Shown: piece by piece, positions 50,924 through 58,905 of the stretch
How the letters are laid out: every line of letters starts with the position of its first letter
How positions within the stretch are numbered: the stretch's first letter is position 1
Source: Geobacillus stearothermophilus ATCC 12980
GTDB taxonomy: Bacteria > Bacillota > Bacilli > Bacillales > Anoxybacillaceae
Length of the DNA: 64,000 nt
Reading direction: 5' to 3'
Assembly (NCBI RefSeq): GCF_030369615.1
Contig: NZ_CP128494.1
Coordinates: forward strand, 2,375,501-2,439,500
Notes under the pieces: model-generated
What the model was told of the DNA's origin: nothing
The model's input: only the letters and a program-made list of their open reading frames with translations
Database searches by the model: none
Translations under genes and position numbers: made by a program

Positions 50924-51346
50924 ACTCACATTTCGCACCCTCTCGACGAAAATCGGGAGGATTTTTTCGTTCCGATGTCGAATGAATCCTTGAGAGTGCG
51001 TCAGTTTATTACTCCAGAACACCCGTTGAAGGGTCCTGGAGGCCGCAAGCTGACCCGGCCGACGGGACAGGCGATTTTTCAGCTGTTTCAATATGTGAAC
51101 GTCGTCCTGTTCAAGCTGCCGGATGGGCGCATCCAACGCTCACTGGATCGCTCCCTTACCCCTGATCAGCGAAGGATTCTGCAGGGATTGGGCATGGATG
51201 AGAGCATCTACGTGTAACGTGATACGGAACGACCAGTGATGGTAAAAAAAGGATTGCCATCGCTCGTTGTGTTGATCAAAAAGTTATTCTGAAAAACTAA
51301 ATAAAAAATCCTTTGTTTTGACCTTGTTAGGGTGCGAAATGTGAGT
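50924..51346. mobile_element. Internally deleted insertion sequence with perfect 18-base terminal repeats
   Basis: ACTCACATTTCGCACCCT at the left end is repeated exactly in inverted form at the right end. Inside, on the plus strand, the last 70 or so codons of a DDE transposase remain (LTRPTGQAIFQLFQYVNVVL ... SLDRSLTPDQRRILQGLGMD ... stop at 51217), which I take as an IS1634/IS4-like family. The left end is fused to this by a deletion of over a kilobase. It sits inside a second IS element, whose left part is gone. Confidence 0.8.
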
Positions 51347-51902
51347 CACTTCACGTTCATGTTGTGTCACCTCGATCGTCACAGGAGGGACATCAAACAC
51401 TTGACGGATATCGACTTTGAACGGTTTGACTTCACGCAAAGAAGCCCCACATCCTTGACACGTATGCACATGGTGGACGATGCGATGATGTGGATGTTCC
51501 ACTTGACGGAGCGTCGTTCCTTGATGTCCTTCTTGTCCGCCTGGCTTGTTGCCAGATGGTTGACGAGAAGAACGTGTGTTGGCAAAACGGTCAGAAGATG
51601 GGGGCCAATGGCTATTGGAGCTGTTTTTTTTCGTGCGTGCTTCCAGCTCTTGAACACGGTACTTCAGTTGTTCATTTTCTTTGCGTAGTTGTTTGTTTTC
51701 GTGACGCAAATGTTCATTTTCTTGAACGAGTTGATGAATGAGCTGTTTTTGTTGTTGAACTTTGCCGATTAAGCTCTCAACTGTAAATACAGCTTGTTGT
51801 ACCGTCAACATGCGATTCACCTCCTTGTCTATCAATATCCACATCATAGACAGGAAATACAAAAAATATTCAGCTCACTTTATGATGTGGCTGAATAGTT
51901 AC
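51347..51902 (-). mobile_element. IS66-family element, 5' fragment (copy 1)
   Basis: Near-identical to the right 557 bases of the complete copy at 57174-58786. It encodes the first 155 residues of the transposase, with LHRHENKQL-type coiled coil and CQGCGASL zinc motif; two residue changes were noted (T14 for M, and T for A in DVPPV). It ends in TGAATAGTTAC at the right and is cut on the left by the other IS, so it cannot move by itself. Confidence 0.9.
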
Positions 51903-52312
51903 AATTAACCGTCAAGTAGCTGTATCGACGAACGAGCTATCGTCTGGTGCTCAAAATATTTCCGAAGAATTGCAACAAGCCGTACTATTAATAGAAAAAA
52001 TGGATGAAACGTTTGCGCAAACGGCAGACCGAACCGCGCAAACAGCCCAGTATAGCCATATGGCGGTAGAAGCGATTCGTCATGGGCAAAAGGCGATTGA
52101 ACAACAAGAAAAATTTATTCGTGATAACGCAGAGGCAACGGCATTAATTGAAAAAGAGACGAACGAGTTTACGGCGTATGCGTTAAATATCGAGCAAATG
52201 GCGAAAGCGGTATCGGACATTGCCGAACAGACGAATTTACTTGCGTTAAATGCGGCAATTGACCGATGAACTACAAGCGGTGATGGAGAAGTTTCAGACA
52301 AACCATCGCTAA
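51903..52312 (+). pseudogene. Methyl-accepting chemotaxis protein remnant
   Basis: The frame reads VAVSTNELSSGAQNISEELQ, then a coiled-coil signalling domain to SDIAEQTNLLALNAAI, the highly conserved hairpin tip of MCPs, then DR and stop; a few bases on, ELQAVMEKFQTNHR resembles an MCP C-terminus. So the sensor half was removed by the IS66 copy on the left, and the second half of the hairpin (AIEAARAGE...) by an internal deletion. Confidence 0.8.
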
Positions 52313-52314
52313 AA

Positions 52315-52350
52315 GAACCCCCTTTGTTACACATGCGTAACAAAGGGTGC
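52315..52350. terminator. Terminator of the nos-nir cassette
   Basis: CCCTTTGTTAC, 6-base loop, GTAACAAAGGG: 11-base perfect stem containing the nosF stop codon; GGTTCTTTT follows on the minus strand and GTTTTTT on the plus strand. Confidence 0.85.
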
Positions 52351-53052
52351 GTTTTTTGGGTTTACGTGAAGGGAGAGAAAGACGTCCTCGAGAGTGCGGC
52401 ATCGATACGTTCGGTAAATGTCGGGCAACGTGCCGAACGCTTTCACTTCTCCTTGGAACATAATTGCTATCCGGTCGGCGATTTCGACAACATCACGCAT
52501 AATATGACTGCTAAGAAGAATTGTTTTTCCGTTGTTTCGTAACTCACGAATAAGTTGCTTAAACTGAATCACCCAATACGGATCTAATCCGTTCGTTGGC
52601 TCATCGAAAATATAAAGATCAACGTCGGAAAGTAAACATTGTGCGAGATTTAAGCGTTGGCACATCCCTTTAGAGAAAGAGCCAACTTTTTGATGTCGTT
52701 CTTCCCATAACCCAACTTTTTTCAACGTTGCTTCAATCGTTACCATACTTGTATTTAAAAACTTTCCGTAATAGCTGATAATTTCAAGCGGGGTCAATTC
52801 CTTTGGAAAGTTCATATGATCAGGCATATAAGCAAATCGTTTTTTCTTTTCCGTTGCAAAAGTAATCGTTCCAGCAGTAGGTTGTTCAATCCCAGTAATT
52901 AATTTAATGAGTGTGCTTTTCCCTGCTCCGTTTGCTCCGCATAGCACCACGCATTCTCCGCGAGCGATATGAAGATAAACAGGATGCAGCACGCAGCGGT
53001 TTTTATATGACTTGGAAACACCATCGATCGTTAAAATAGTGGAGCCGCCCAT
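52327..53052 (-). CDS. nosF: ABC transporter ATPase NosF
   Basis: A 241-residue ATPase: Walker A GANGAGKSTLIKL near 39, the signature FSKGMCQRLNLAQC (the usual NosF/CcmA variant of LSGGQ) near 127, Walker B LYIFDEPTNGLDP near 148. It powers the NosDFY complex, which in denitrifiers matures the copper centre of N2O reductase. GGGAAGGATAAA precedes the ATG, one base after nosY. Last gene of the cassette. Confidence 0.87.
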   Translation of the reverse strand: MGGSTILTIDGVSKSYKNRCVLHPVYLHIARGECVVLCGANGAGKSTLIKLITGIEQPTAGTITFATEKKKRFAYMPDHMNFPKELTPLEIISYYGKFLNTSMVTIEATLKKVGLWEERHQKVGSFSKGMCQRLNLAQCLLSDVDLYIFDEPTNGLDPYWVIQFKQLIRELRNNGKTILLSSHIMRDVVEIADRIAIMFQGEVKAFGTLPDIYRTYRCRTLEDVFLSLHVNPKNAPFVTHV

Positions 53053-53053
53053 T

Positions 53054-54007
53054 TTATCCTTCCCTTCTTTTCAATAAATGCGTAGATAGCAAAATCGCGA
53101 CCACTGCCATTGCAAATAAGGCGGTCATTGCTGCAATGTTGAGCGTTCCTGTTTTGGTAAACGTTTTTAACACTAAATACTCCGGGCCGAAAATATAGTT
53201 GGCATTTAGCTGCTCGATTGCCCATACTCGTAACGTTTCGACAGGGTTCAGCAAGAGAAAAAATAACAAACTTTTTAGCTTCAGAGAATATGGAATAAAA
53301 TCGATGACCGAAAAAATGACGAATTCGTAAATAAAGACGAGAAAGCTCCATGTCAATAACGTCAGCGATAGTCCTTGCATTCTCGTTACACTCATCGCGC
53401 CGATGAGTAGCGAAAGAGCAGAAAAAACAACTATTAGCAATACATTAAGCAAAAGGAACGTTTGAAAAATCGACGTTCCGCGCCAATGACCACTTGCTGC
53501 TAAAACAAGCCCAAATACTCCATACGATAAGCCAAGAGCGATGGTGAGTGAACAAACAAGCGCGAGAAATTTGCTGAGCATATAGTAAACGTAAGGAGCG
53601 TCATATGTTTTGTATAAAGCAAACCGACCGCTTTCTTTATCCACAAGAATAGAATTTGTGCCAAGAATTAAACATATGGCCGGTAAAAGCCATAAAGACA
53701 AGTTCATTAACATCGCAATTGCTCGTGTATATGAAGAGGTTTCGATTTCAGCGGTCGATCTTGTATCGACTACGGTTTTTTTCAGCCCAAAATATTCTGG
53801 ATTGACGCCGGACGTATTCATATTTTGGTTCACAGAGTCCAGCCCATATTGAACATCCACAGGGTCGGACTGGACGGATTGAATGCCGTAAGCATAAAGA
53901 AGCCCAGAAAGAACGAGAAATAAAACAATCATATTGAACAGCCATTTGTTTCGCAATAACATACGTAACTCATAGCGAATCATTGAATAGATGAGCGGAA
54001 TGTTCAT
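53054..54007 (-). CDS. nosY: NosY-type ABC permease
   Basis: A 317-residue membrane protein of the ABC-2 type: a cytoplasmic start (MIRYELRMLLRNKWLFNMIV), a first helix, a periplasmic loop of about 70 residues, then five hydrophobic helices between 95 and 300. With NosF and NosD it forms the maturation complex for copper-sulfide centre assembly. GGGGGAAAAAGCG precedes the ATG. Confidence 0.85.
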   Translation of the reverse strand: MNIPLIYSMIRYELRMLLRNKWLFNMIVLFLVLSGLLYAYGIQSVQSDPVDVQYGLDSVNQNMNTSGVNPEYFGLKKTVVDTRSTAEIETSSYTRAIAMLMNLSLWLLPAICLILGTNSILVDKESGRFALYKTYDAPYVYYMLSKFLALVCSLTIALGLSYGVFGLVLAASGHWRGTSIFQTFLLLNVLLIVVFSALSLLIGAMSVTRMQGLSLTLLTWSFLVFIYEFVIFSVIDFIPYSLKLKSLLFFLLLNPVETLRVWAIEQLNANYIFGPEYLVLKTFTKTGTLNIAAMTALFAMAVVAILLSTHLLKRREG

Positions 54008-54022
54008 CGCTTTTTCCCCCGT

Positions 54023-54475
54023 TTAATGGCTATGCATCTTGAATTCCATCATGTTTTGCTTGAGAAGTTCGTCCGCGGAAAACACTTGCCCACCGTGTTC
54101 GTTCGCAAATTTTTCTGCTGCTTGTTTCGTTAAAAAGGCGGCGATGCCGTATCCCATTGGGCTTTCGATGGATGAGTCGTGAACAAAATAACTCTTTTGA
54201 AAATCAATCCATTCTTTCGAATCATGTGCATGGACGAAGGCAGCGTCGATGTTTTTATGTTGCTGTAGATAAGTTACCATACAGCCGATATCGTCAAACT
54301 TCATCGGTTTTCCATCAATTAATACTTCCGCTGCTAACGATGCGTCACGAATCCCCATATGGCATGTATCACAGCTATCGACATTTTCGTTAATTTCTAC
54401 AGTCTTAGCTGCTTGGGCAGAGCATCCTGCTGTCATCGAAAGGGCAAGCAAAAAAGTGAGTAGTTTACGTTTCAT
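54023..54475 (-). CDS. nosL: NosL copper chaperone lipoprotein
   Basis: A 150-residue lipoprotein: signal MKRKLLTFLLALSMTAGC (lipobox TAGC), then VDSCDTCHMGIRDAS near 33 with the NosL C-x2-C-x-M metal site, FDDIGCMVTYLQQH near 78 and a His/Met tail KMHSH. NosL carries Cu(I) to the NosDFY/NosZ machinery outside the membrane. Its ATG overlaps the 3' end of nosD by 11 bases; GAGGAGGAAG upstream. Confidence 0.88.
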   Translation of the reverse strand: MKRKLLTFLLALSMTAGCSAQAAKTVEINENVDSCDTCHMGIRDASLAAEVLIDGKPMKFDDIGCMVTYLQQHKNIDAAFVHAHDSKEWIDFQKSYFVHDSSIESPMGYGIAAFLTKQAAEKFANEHGGQVFSADELLKQNMMEFKMHSH

Positions 54476-55823
54476 GATACTTCCTCCTCGTCACTAAAAA
54501 AGTAGCGCCACTCCATAAAGTCAGTAAGAGAAAAAAACTCAGTTGTGGAATAGGGAAAGGAGCAGCTTCGTTTTTCTTTTCATTGGTATTAGTGTGAGTG
54601 TGAATAGTTACAGGTGTTGCCAATGCATGCCGATCAACGATAAACTGATCGGATGGAATTGGTGTATATTGTTCAATCATGTTCCATAATCGGATAGCAG
54701 GGCTTTCATAAAAAATTTGCAAAAGCGGTTCTTTTGTCATGAGGTAGTAAGAAGCATCGCCGCTTTTATAGGCATAGTCTACAATATTGTCACGGTTAAG
54801 ATCCATCGTCTGCCAATCATCGTAATAATTCCCTAACCCTTCCCAACTAAAGGTGTTTTTGTTATTTTTCGCAGAGATGATTTGCCGTATGTTTTTTAAA
54901 AAGTTGTTTAAATAAATGGTGTTTTCTTTAGAAGATTTGCCGATGTCTAGTCCGGTGTCGTTTTGCTCAAATATGTTATAGCAAATCGAGCTTTTTTGGA
55001 CGTTTTCGACATACATCCCTTTTTTGTTTCCGCGCATGATGTTGTTAGTAATTTCAGAGTAAAACGTATCAAACATAAAAATACCGACACCGTCGATTGT
55101 TGTGTTCCATTGCAGCACATTTCCAGTCATTAGTACGTAGTCACTTTGCATAATCATAAATCCATTGCGGCTTTCGCTTACCTCATTTTGTGCGATGGCA
55201 ATATTTTTCGAGTCCATCGTATGAACGCCATATCTTACGTTCCATATTTTATTTTTTTGCACTTCGCAAAAATTAGAGTACGAGATGTAAATGCCGTCTT
55301 GTAAGCGAAAAATATTGTTTTCTATTATTTTTGTTTGCGGTGCTTCGGTAAGGTAAATCCCAAAGCCTTTAAACGCTTTTTTTTCGGCAAAACTTGTGAT
55401 TTGGTTATGCCTGATTTCAGTGCCATATCCGTTCCGAACGACGATTCCGTGGAACACGTCGTGAATAATATTGTTCAACATTTTTGTGCGATTGGCAGTA
55501 ATATAAATACCAGCATCTTGCGACCCGCTTTGTTGAATGTCTAAGTTGTCAATTACGACATCATCAGCGGCAACGGTTATGACGTTCCCTTCACCTGTTC
55601 CGATAATTATTGCTCCATCTTCGCCGCGAATCGTGACCGAGCGGTTGATGACGAGATTTCCACGATAAGTTCCTTTTTTTAGAGTAATGACATCGCCTTG
55701 ATGGGCGAGCTGTAATGCGCGATGGAGATCGTTTTCATTATGAACAGCAATTTCTTTTGCCATTGCTTTTGGCGCAGCAAGCGATAAAAGCAAAAGGAGA
55801 AAAAAGAGAATTTTTTTATGCAT
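54465..55823 (-). CDS. nosD: NosD periplasmic copper-centre maturation protein
   Basis: A 452-residue NosD: signal peptide (KKILFFLLLLLSLAAPKAMA), then a right-handed beta helix of about 15 NosD/CASH-type repeats (for example NRTKMLNNIIHDVFHGIVVR, NFCEVQKNKIWNVRYGVHTM), a non-helical domain, and a C-terminal membrane anchor (LSFFLLLTLWSGATFLVT) typical of Gram-positive relatives. AGGGGTGAGTGC precedes the ATG. It sits 30 bases after nirK. Confidence 0.88.
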   Translation of the reverse strand: MHKKILFFLLLLLSLAAPKAMAKEIAVHNENDLHRALQLAHQGDVITLKKGTYRGNLVINRSVTIRGEDGAIIIGTGEGNVITVAADDVVIDNLDIQQSGSQDAGIYITANRTKMLNNIIHDVFHGIVVRNGYGTEIRHNQITSFAEKKAFKGFGIYLTEAPQTKIIENNIFRLQDGIYISYSNFCEVQKNKIWNVRYGVHTMDSKNIAIAQNEVSESRNGFMIMQSDYVLMTGNVLQWNTTIDGVGIFMFDTFYSEITNNIMRGNKKGMYVENVQKSSICYNIFEQNDTGLDIGKSSKENTIYLNNFLKNIRQIISAKNNKNTFSWEGLGNYYDDWQTMDLNRDNIVDYAYKSGDASYYLMTKEPLLQIFYESPAIRLWNMIEQYTPIPSDQFIVDRHALATPVTIHTHTNTNEKKNEAAPFPIPQLSFFLLLTLWSGATFLVTRRKYHET

Positions 55824-55853
55824 GCACTCACCCCTAATGGTATGTTAGGTGCT

Positions 55854-56930
55854 TTAATGGCCCATCGTGGCCTTGCCGTCGTCTTCGCCGGTTTCGGTGA
55901 CTTTTAAAATGGCGACGGCTCCTTTTTGTGCATCGTTAAACTGGTGCGTGACAATCGGATAGTTTCCAGGACGAGTGACGGTAAATTCCACGACCGCACC
56001 ACCGCTCGCTGGAAGCATGACCGTTTGCAATCCTTTCAGATGGTTTGCAGGGTTTCCGTCTAAGTAAACGTCATCGAATACCGTTCCGACAACGTGGAAG
56101 GAGCTCACGTGATTTGGACCGACGTTATTGACGTAAATTCTAATACGATCCCCTACTTTTGCCACTAGTGGATGTTCTTTTAATGTAAACGTATCCCCAT
56201 TTGTATTTCGGTCTCCTTCTTTTAACGCTTTTGTTGAAAAGACGACATGGCTTGGAACGCCATTCGCAAAGTCGTTCATGTCGTTGTATTTGTACCATTC
56301 GTTTTGAATAAGTACAAATTCGCGGTCGATGCTTTTATCTGTTGGATAGCCGTTTTTCGGTTTGACGATAATGGTGCCGTGCATGCCGTTAGCGATATGC
56401 GCTAAAACAGGCGATGTGCCGCAGTGGTACATAAAGACGCCCGGATTGTTTGCTGGATAGGAAAATGTTCCGGTTTCGTTTGGCTGTACGTTTGCAAAAT
56501 CTTTTGATGGCGCAGCGTGAACGGCATGGAAGTCCATACTATGTGGAATGGCTGGATCCATGTTTTTTAGTGTGAAATGAATGGTGTCCCCTTCGTTTAC
56601 GACAACTAATGGACCTGGTGCCTGCCCGTTAAACGTCCACGCTTTGTATATTTTCCCTTTGTCAATTTCAATGTCGGTAATTTGTGCTGTCATTTCCACG
56701 TTGACGTCGTGTGGGCCGGTTCGTTCTATTTTGATCGGGACTGGAGGTTGGTTTAGCCCTTTATGAGGTTCAATGACTTGTGATGTTTGCGTCGTCCCTT
56801 GCGTAGAAGCGGTGTTAGCGCTCTCTTTTTTGGATGTGCTCGTCGCCACCGAATCGTTGCCGCTACAGCCTGCTAAAAGCGAAACACTTAACGCAGCAGC
56901 CGTCCACATCATTTTTGTTTTTCGTTTCAT
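55854..56930 (-). CDS. nirK: Copper-containing nitrite reductase NirK
   Basis: A 358-residue lipoprotein-type NirK, with signal MKRKTKMMWTAAALSVSLLAGC (lipobox LLAGC). It reduces nitrite to nitric oxide outside the membrane. Copper ligands are visible: HSMDFHAVHA (His of type 1 and type 2 sites) near 145, FMYHCGTSPVLAHIANGM (His-Cys...His...Met) near 184, and the second-domain type 2 His in PIVTHQFNDAQKGA near 335, with the catalytic Asp/His set in SMDFH and SSFHVVG. GAAGGGGGAAC precedes the ATG. First gene of the cassette, under an FNR-type promoter. Confidence 0.93.
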   Translation of the reverse strand: MKRKTKMMWTAAALSVSLLAGCSGNDSVATSTSKKESANTASTQGTTQTSQVIEPHKGLNQPPVPIKIERTGPHDVNVEMTAQITDIEIDKGKIYKAWTFNGQAPGPLVVVNEGDTIHFTLKNMDPAIPHSMDFHAVHAAPSKDFANVQPNETGTFSYPANNPGVFMYHCGTSPVLAHIANGMHGTIIVKPKNGYPTDKSIDREFVLIQNEWYKYNDMNDFANGVPSHVVFSTKALKEGDRNTNGDTFTLKEHPLVAKVGDRIRIYVNNVGPNHVSSFHVVGTVFDDVYLDGNPANHLKGLQTVMLPASGGAVVEFTVTRPGNYPIVTHQFNDAQKGAVAILKVTETGEDDGKATMGH

Positions 56931-56963
56931 TTTTGTTCCCCCTTCATCAAAATAACGTTGTTT

Positions 56964-57014
56964 CACCATTACTATAGCGGGTGCAATAGCTTGGTACGTG
57001 TGATAATTTTCACG
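56964..57014 (-). promoter_or_regulatory. FNR-type promoter of nirK-nosDLYF
   Basis: CGTGA-AAATTA-TCACA on the minus strand (57014-56999) matches the FNR site TGTGA-N6-TCACA with one mismatch. TATAGT (56976-56971) is a good -10 box. A start at about 56964 would put the FNR site centre at -41.5 to -42, the class II position. A second half-like TGTGA-N6-TTTGA lies a little upstream. Confidence 0.75.
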
Positions 57015-57173
57015 GAGGAAATATTATTTGTGAATAATTTTTGAAATGTTCAATGAATGACTCAACGGTAAAAATAGTAGTTTTGTTAATTATGAGGGAG
57101 AGGTGATTTTATTATATGAATATATTGTTTGTAACGTAATTAACGGAAAAACATGTAAAAGAGCTTGCGAAAG

Positions 57174-58786
57174 GTAACTATTCACCCCAATAGTGGTATG
57201 TAAAGAAGCGCAACACAAATAGGGCATCCCCGTGGTGGAAAATGCCCTAAGTGGTAGAAAGCACACGATCGAGCGTGTCGCCTGCCAACAGAAGACATAA
57301 CGAATCCCACACGTTTTTTTCGTGTTTCGTCAGTGTGGAAACGATGCTTCTTGTGATGCAAAAAGACTGGGCGAATGTTTCTTCGCGAAACGTACCCGAA
57401 ATGTTCTCTTTGACTTTAACCATGCGAAGATCGCGTTCGGCTTGGTTGTTGTCAAAGGGAACATGTACTTCACGTAAGAAACGCAGCGCTTCTTCCTTTC
57501 GTTTTTGAAGGCGTCGAACAAAAGCGAGTGCTTTTTTCGGAAGAGGCGTCATCGTTTCTAATCGGTGTTGTGCTCTTTCTAGGATGCGATCATACACTCG
57601 TTCCCACCGTCTCGCTTCTTCTTCGGAAAGTGCACCGTGATGGGCTTCGACGGCTTGCTTGGCGGCTAACAGAAACGTGGTCATGCGCATCGCCCACGTA
57701 TGCCCCTGTTCGATGAATCCTTTTAACTCACGCAAATGGTGGGCATGACAAAGGGCATGGGTGGCATGTGTGTATTTCGGATACGTACCGAACGCATCGT
57801 GCATCATCGTCCCTTCATATCGGGGAAGAATCCCGATATCATCGGTCGCTTTTTTTCCACGAGAAGCGTGAGGAGCCAAGTATGTATATCTCGATGTACA
57901 CGCGACATGCACCCATGCGAGTTTCCCATTGATGCGCAAACTCGTTTCATCGACATGCAGGATGTTGGATTCAAGTAAGGCGTCTTCGATGATGTCCATA
58001 TTTGATTCCAGCGCTTTGCGTCCTCGTTTCACCATATTGGCAAGAGTTCCCGTACTAATCGAGTGTTGATATAACGCTTCGATTGTATCACTTAAACGCT
58101 TGTACGGGATCAATTGGATATGATGTAAATAAACAACGAGCGCCGTGAGCCGTGGACCGTATTGCACATGATTCGTGACATGGGCTGGGAATTCGGCTTG
58201 TTGAACACATCGACAATGTGGACACGATTTCACTTCACGTTCATGTTGTGTCACCTCGATCGCCACAGGAGGGACATCAAACACTTGACGGATATCGACT
58301 TTGAACGGTTTGACTTCACGCAAAGAAGCCCCACATCCTTGACACGTATGCACATGGTGGACGATGCGATGATGTGGATGTTCCACTTGACGGAGCGTCG
58401 TTCCTTGATGTCCTTCTTGTCCGCCTGGCTTGTTGCCAGATGGTTGACGAGAAGAACGTGTGTTGGCAAAACGGTCAGAAGATGGGGGCCAATGGCTATT
58501 GGAGCTGTTTTTTTTCGTGCGTGCTTCCAGCTCTTGAACACGGTACTTCAGTTGTTCATTTTCTTTGCGTAGTTGTTTGTTTTCGTGACGCAAATGTTCA
58601 TTTTCTTGAACGAGTTGATGAATGAGCTGTTTTTGTTGTTGAACTTTGCCGATTAAGCTCTCAACTGTAAATACAGCTTGTTGTACCATCAACATGCGAT
58701 TCACCTCCTTGTCTATCAATATCCACATCATAGACAGGAAATACAAAAAATATTCAGCTCACTTTATGATGTGGCTGAATAGTTAC
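57174..58786 (-). mobile_element. IS66-family insertion sequence, complete (ISBst12-like, copy 2)
   Basis: About 1613 bases from GTAACTATTCAcccc to the inverted TGAATAGTTAC, with one transposase gene and no tnpA/tnpB. The flanking octamers (TGCGAAAG and CTCTCGGT) differ, so no target duplication is left, which suggests a rearrangement after insertion. The size and the single gene match what I remember of ISBst12. Confidence 0.92.
57247..58695 (-). CDS. tnp: IS66-family transposase
   Basis: A 482-residue IS66 DDE transposase: N-terminal coiled coil (HQLVQENEHLRHENKQLRKE, residues 28-60), a KKNSSNSHWPPSSDR element, a zinc ribbon (CQGCGASL and SCPHCRCVQ, near 110 and 160), and the catalytic domain with NILHVDETSLRINGKLAWVH, MHDAFGTYPKY and C-terminal VPFDNNQAERDLRMVKVKENISG. 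All three acidic residues appear to be present. The ATG follows a perfect AAGGAGGTGA; the open frame extends 17 codons more without a site. Confidence 0.93.
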   Translation of the reverse strand: MLMVQQAVFTVESLIGKVQQQKQLIHQLVQENEHLRHENKQLRKENEQLKYRVQELEARTKKNSSNSHWPPSSDRFANTRSSRQPSGNKPGGQEGHQGTTLRQVEHPHHRIVHHVHTCQGCGASLREVKPFKVDIRQVFDVPPVAIEVTQHEREVKSCPHCRCVQQAEFPAHVTNHVQYGPRLTALVVYLHHIQLIPYKRLSDTIEALYQHSISTGTLANMVKRGRKALESNMDIIEDALLESNILHVDETSLRINGKLAWVHVACTSRYTYLAPHASRGKKATDDIGILPRYEGTMMHDAFGTYPKYTHATHALCHAHHLRELKGFIEQGHTWAMRMTTFLLAAKQAVEAHHGALSEEEARRWERVYDRILERAQHRLETMTPLPKKALAFVRRLQKRKEEALRFLREVHVPFDNNQAERDLRMVKVKENISGTFREETFAQSFCITRSIVSTLTKHEKNVWDSLCLLLAGDTLDRVLSTT

Positions 58787-58905
58787 CTCTCGGTAAAAAG
58801 CGGCCAAGCGGGCTCCCAAATCTCGTTTGTCGTGCATCAGCGGCACCAACCCTTGTGAAAAATGCGGTTTTACTTTTATATATTCGCCGCTTTCGTAAAT
58901 GAAAA

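Follow-up and report, generated by a model that had tools for sequence, protein, structure and literature searches.

nosD, nosL, nosY and nosF form one cassette with the copper nitrite reductase gene nirK in Geobacillus stearothermophilus ATCC 12980, and this arrangement is real and conserved in other Bacillales. NosDFY and NosL have been described as the machinery of nitrous oxide reductase. Judging from the sequences, we lean toward the view that the version of NosDLYF found here is dedicated to the copper loading of NirK and is needed under some conditions.

The nirK-nosDLYF cassette

The window, i.e., the whole stretch of 64,000 nucleotides that was analyzed, contains the ORFs in the order nirK-nosD-nosL-nosY-nosF on the minus strand, from 56930 to 52327, and all five genes are intact. 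The first gene, nirK (55854..56930, minus strand), encodes a copper nitrite reductase of the Geobacillus/Bacillus type, as judged from its ORF and from family and structure matches, and the product is a predicted lipoprotein (LLAGC). A G-rich stretch resembling a ribosome-binding site precedes the start at 56930, and an alternative in-frame ATG is located at 56969. NirK stays under the cut-off of TIGR02376 (202.9 versus 296.3 bits), which we take not to cover its branch because Geobacillus-type NirK structures match at an E-value of 1e-189. The best match among solved structures is the Geobacillus-type NirK 3x1e (E 1.3e-189), and NirKs from Bacillales of the same family are 79 to 81% identical to that of the cassette. 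By eye, the His/Cys/Met and Asp/His stretches, which we take to hold the type 1 and type 2 copper ligands, agree with 3x1e in the alignment.

The gene nosD (54465..55823, minus strand) is assigned to a nirK-linked type by TIGR04247 (308.7 bits versus a cut-off of 300) and by a clade of its own, and its product has a signal-like N-terminal stretch, a beta-helix and a hydrophobic C-terminal stretch. nosL (54023..54475, minus strand; PF05573, 69.9 bits versus a cut-off of 24) encodes a lipoprotein copper chaperone with the lipobox TAGC and a CXXCXM motif (CDTCHM); this copper motif, the meaning of which is given in the available text of PMC6530538, is conserved in 19 of the 19 loci listed. The remaining two genes encode an ABC permease (nosY, 53054..54007, minus strand; PF12679, 30.5 versus 27.2) and an ABC ATPase with Walker A, signature and Walker B motifs (nosF, 52327..53052, minus strand; PF00005, 99.5 versus 25), and the nucleotide-binding motifs together with the permease family identify NosF and NosY as an ABC pair. 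Among the 25 NCBIfam families listed, nothing over the cut-off was found for NosY, nor anything specific for NosF.

An earlier note on this DNA had described the same ORFs and gene order, which we recovered unchanged, and a tight spacing of 30 bases followed by overlaps. The 30-base spacer between nirK and nosD is present, but the only overlap is that of nosD with nosL (11 bases), whereas gaps of 15 bases (nosL-nosY) and 1 base (nosY-nosF) separate the other genes. Nor is the tightness general: in relatives, the distance from nirK to the start of the nosD ORF ranges from 14 to 131 bases and is wider than that of the window in most. In A. voinovskiensis, the spacer (L113:5045-5141; 55824-55853 in the window) has about 97 extra bases with a predicted hairpin. 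Several other relatives also have a stable hairpin at this site, and the spacer of the window has none. The hairpin may govern how much NosDLYF is made relative to NirK.

Conservation of the gene order without nosZ

The order nirK-nosD-nosL-nosY-nosF is present in nine of nine related named loci (A. voinovskiensis, six Cytobacillus records, one Paenibacillus record and Sporosarcina globispora). Our tree set comprised 17 loci with nirK directly before nosD, two of which have an identical NosD and are probably from one genome; hence, the occurrence of the order in other genomes, which the earlier note had left to be checked, extends to 16 distinct Bacillales genomes. A search beyond the Bacillales at E <= 1e-85 returned the source genome alone among 398 genomes of the phylum, a thin sample that missed genomes known to bear the type. 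No relative was found in viral contigs.

The note had seen no nosZ in the cassette and had considered that the gene might be elsewhere, and the absence in fact extends to the whole genome (2,860,911 bases in 2 contigs, 99.95% complete). The best score for NosZ (TIGR04246) was 55 bits, from a CuA-domain stretch, versus a cut-off of 625, so that nosZ was found neither in the operon nor in the genome. As a control, 8 of 41 genomes of the family had a NosZ above the cut-off in the same search; TIGR04246 was used instead of PF18764, which we discarded as a probe because it gave no matches anywhere, controls included. An intact nosZ with its own operon is thus not seen in this genome, and none of the loci read has the order nirK-nosZ-nosDLYF. 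nosZ exceeds the cut-off in 5 of the 16 genomes (A. voinovskiensis, C. massiliigabonensis, C. praedii, C. eiseniae and genome G108) and was not found in the other 11. In each of these five, a second nosD, which matches the nosZ-linked type, adjoins nosZ, and we therefore regard the nirK-linked and nosZ-linked machines as separate.

Another possibility raised at the outset was that the cassette is the remnant of a nos operon from which nosZ was lost via IS activity. Copies of IS66 do lie on both sides of the cassette (see below), but the order without nosZ inside is common to 16 distinct genomes, no IS was found inside the cassette of A. voinovskiensis, nosZ-linked NosD belongs to another clade and the genes are intact. 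These observations make the loss of nosZ from this cassette extremely improbable.

Co-occurrence with nirK and a common FNR-like box

NosD of the nirK-linked type occurs in 12 of the 397 Bacillales genomes of one sample, and all 12 are among the 39 genomes with nirK (hypergeometric p 1.4e-13, kinship uncorrected); the limit for the type, 450 bits, was set by us at a gap in the scores (455 to 306). nirK is located directly upstream of this nosD in 9 of the 12 genomes, and in the remaining 3, all of family f16, nosD lies apart from nirK among unrelated genes. A link of the type to nosZ instead of nirK was considered and rejected: nosZ is present in 5 of the 12 genomes and exceeds the cut-off in 4 of the 27 nirK genomes without the type (p 0.10), a count that leaves out the broken nosZ of genome G285, and the association is carried mostly by family f16. 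In G285, nosZ (C1:3078324-3080056) is in two pieces with internal stops, and nirK also contains an internal stop.

The FNR-type site that had been proposed upstream of nirK is supported by an FNR-like box at 56999..57014 on the minus strand (the plus strand reads TGTGATAATTTTCACG), with one mismatch to TGTGA-N6-TCACA, the FNR consensus used here. Such a box precedes 15 of 16 nosD-linked nirK rows versus 9 of 20 unlinked rows, with one further row at a contig end, and 25 of 37 distinct nirK rows overall (29 of 43 with duplicates) against a shuffle rate of 1.1%. It is also found before all three nirK-type nosD genes that are apart from nirK, two of which come from close relatives and share the same box. 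It precedes none of 20 nosD genes of other types and none of the three nosZ genes scanned.

Linkage to nirK could serve shared regulation only, and the client of NosDLYF could be a different copper enzyme of anaerobic respiration, such as a heme-copper NO reductase or oxidase with its CuA site. In line with this, COX1-type and CuA-type subunit genes adjoin nirK-nosDLYF in one genome (G289), B. azotoformans-like genomes hold nirK-type NosD away from nirK with an FNR-like box, and the source genome (G000) has a CuA-type match. However, among the 41 genomes of the family, CuA-type matches are widespread in the absence of nirK-type NosD, while nirK accompanies the type in 12 of 12 genomes, and of the loci read, one has COX1/CuA genes adjacent. 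We consider such a client distinctly unlikely. The locus in G289 (L192), with the COX1-type and CuA-type genes alongside, has two nirK genes flanking nosDLYF.

A separate clade of NosD

The NosD tree, with 48 rows, groups nirK-linked NosD in one clade of 20 rows (support 100/100), which includes the three copies apart from nirK, and nosZ-linked NosD in another clade of eight rows (support 100/100). Of two further types, one neighbors genes for copper P-type ATPases and the other has no evident partner. At loci L122, L120 and L124 (genera g2 and g9), another nosDLYF type is located near genes for a copper P-type ATPase and a CsoR-/ArsR-type regulator, with neither nirK nor nosZ beside it.

Fifteen columns of NosD are invariant in the 20-row clade and rare elsewhere. 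The most conspicuous are Tyr157, which is His in eight of eight nosZ-linked and 13 of 14 other rows; Ser181, elsewhere Asp or Glu; Asp204, elsewhere Tyr or Phe; and Phe249, which is Leu in 28 of 28 other rows. His201, Met203 and Met225 are conserved in all 48 rows, with clade-specific residues close by. The clade-specific residues were picked post hoc, and we treat them as leads only because such residues are expected in any old clade. The distances of NosD and NirK correlate (r 0.94 for 16 linked pairs, permutation p 0.0002), but this codivergence and the clade-specific residues are likewise expected when linked genes are simply inherited vertically as one unit. A bolder idea, toward which we are slightly skeptical, is that NosDLYF was respecialized from nitrous oxide reductase, becoming the first energy-driven maturation machine dedicated to NirK; the clade-wide changes in NosD near the His and Met residues would then mark the switch of client.

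Loss of nosDLYF beside a retained nirK

NosDLYF is not essential for NirK, because 19 of the 27 nirK genomes without nirK-type NosD show no NosD at E <= 1e-20; in the family of the source organism, NosD is missing in 7 of 17 nirK genomes. As its third option, the earlier note had suggested a complex diverted to NirK or to some other copper protein. This is the best supported of the three, except in the strict reading of an essential function, which the 19 genomes contradict. Geobacillus NirK produced in E. coli yields copper-loaded crystals, and this counts against a machine dedicated to NirK.

Empty sites can be compared within genus g92, in which one genome (G197) has nirK-nosDLYF and two others (G246 and G221) have a nearly identical NirK at the same site, followed by the same downstream genes without nosDLYF; the flanks of G197 and G246 share about 90% DNA identity. 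Genome G013 keeps the nirK of the cassette, but homology stops near the start of nosD and nosDLYF is gone. The ORF that follows nirK in G013 (L203:5948-6649) encodes an Ntox44 domain. On the NirK tree, three changes in linkage (with one uncertain row omitted) or four are needed. The loss of nosDLYF with NirK kept fits a helper that is needed at times only, and a conditional role also fits the phenotype of Paracoccus, in which, according to the available text of PMC6530538 and PMC7558416, loss of NosL has an effect only under copper limitation.

The repeated absence of nosDLYF beside a kept NirK would also be expected if nosDLYF had landed beside nirK once and had since been carried along without a functional tie. 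Yet the five cassette genes are under purifying selection, with dN/dS values relative to A. voinovskiensis of 0.14 for nirK, 0.16 for nosD, 0.32 for nosL (only 7 changes), 0.12 for nosY and 0.07 for nosF, and nirK-type NosD occurs with nirK only and has its own FNR-like box when apart; we find such hitchhiking quite improbable. The losses could also reflect a general role in supplying or removing copper under anaerobic conditions in which NO is produced, with no specific client, and the other NosDLYF type of Anoxybacillus and relatives, near copper P-type ATPase and CsoR-type genes, points in the same direction. This P-type ATPase-associated type belongs, however, to a different clade and lacks the FNR-like box (0 of 20), while the nirK type is confined to genomes with nirK, so a general role seems unlikely to us.

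Origin of the cassette

The cassette lies in a low-G+C island (52316..57173) and looks like a recent import. The DNA of the island is 94.3% identical over 3,529 bases and 94.9% identical over 1,330 bases to the cassette of A. voinovskiensis, compared with 75% at one control locus, a CuA oxidase locus, and the G+C content is 40.5% for nosDLYF and 46.7% for nirK versus 52.7% for the window. An IS66-type element (57174..58788, minus strand; transposase at 57247-58746) starts at the base after the end of the island, and sequence comparison revealed a partial second copy in the same orientation that is 99.6% identical (51346..51902, minus strand). The 8 bases on one side of the full copy do not match those on the other, so that no target duplication was found, and the IS66 copies could not be shown to stem from simple insertion or to form a composite transposon of the classic kind. 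A plasmid vehicle was rejected: no near match of the island was found in 72,556 plasmid records, and the protein matches on plasmids were all below 60% identity.

Several stretches nearby deserve mention. The segment that separates the island from the partial IS66 copy (51903-52315) contains a fragment that by eye resembles part of a chemotaxis receptor. A stretch of 69 bases (50925-50993) is 85.5% identical to sequence flanking the cassette in A. voinovskiensis, where a DUF4277 ORF is close by, and may be what is left of an IS from the donor. In genome G004, a copy of the cassette-flanking IS66 element (L120:5377-6991, 95% identical) lies directly before another nosDLYF cluster.

The genome also has a resident nirK of the Geobacillus type in its nar region (C1:619135-620173; L112:8112-9177), which is split over two frames and is flanked by a gene for an MFS transporter and by an IS110-type transposase. 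The imported cassette may have replaced this resident gene, unless the split is an assembly error.

A model for conditional copper loading of NirK

NirK is usually thought to fill itself with copper. We hypothesize that NirK and NosL, both predicted lipoproteins, are anchored at the outside of the membrane, where NosL would pass Cu(I) on to NosD. NosF/NosY would then hydrolyze ATP to power the transfer from NosD into apo-NirK, in the way that NosDFY supplies NosZ. An FNR-type regulator would switch on nosDLYF together with nirK. The machine would matter at low copper supply or under strong competition for the metal, and hence would be dispensable and often lost. The whole cassette would have come from an Anoxybacillus-like donor to its place next to IS66, with the resident copy of nirK decaying.

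If a lineage of nosDLYF does serve NirK, the presence of nosD without nosZ need not signal a lost N2O reductase. This would bear on the use of nosD as a marker of nos clusters (KEGG K07218), for which the available text of PMC11388526 provides an example. The copper loading of NirK in soil and thermophilic Bacillales could then be tested directly in naturally occurring pairs of closely related genomes, one with and one without these four genes at a given site.

Comparison with known systems

In the literature searched, which omits most subscription journals, we found no systematic treatment of nirK-linked NosDLYF and no paper on thiocyanate dehydrogenase clusters with NosDFY-like genes. Such clusters carry relatives of NosDFY that serve an enzyme other than NosZ. 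The conjecture that NirK is the recipient is already in print, while the evidence from the clade, co-occurrence, regulation and empty sites appears to be new. A 2026 survey of lipoproteins in P. thermoglucosidasius describes NosDFYL without NosZ and names NirK as a likely recipient, in one remark of its available text (PMC13068155). There, the main locus of Parageobacillus thermoglucosidasius is not beside nirK and is probably of the unlinked type of that family, and a homologue in G. stearothermophilus B4109 clusters with NosL, NosD and an ABC pair, which is probably the cassette of the window. A 2012 paper on B. azotoformans suggested that nos clusters without nosZ act as a copper factory that may supply other copper proteins, such as NirK, too (PMC3475470). 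Its nosD5-L5-Y5 resembles the copies that we found apart from nirK, and nirK is isolated, with no nirK-nosDLYF described in the text available.

The closest characterized system is NosDFY(L) of nitrous oxide reductase from Pseudomonas stutzeri (7o0y), to which NosD is homologous over most of its length (E 1.4e-43). The cassette has the same four components and keeps the NosL motif and the candidate copper residues. Unlike nos operons, it has no nosZ, its candidate client is NirK, and its NosD belongs to a separate clade with Tyr157, Ser181, Asp204 and Phe249.
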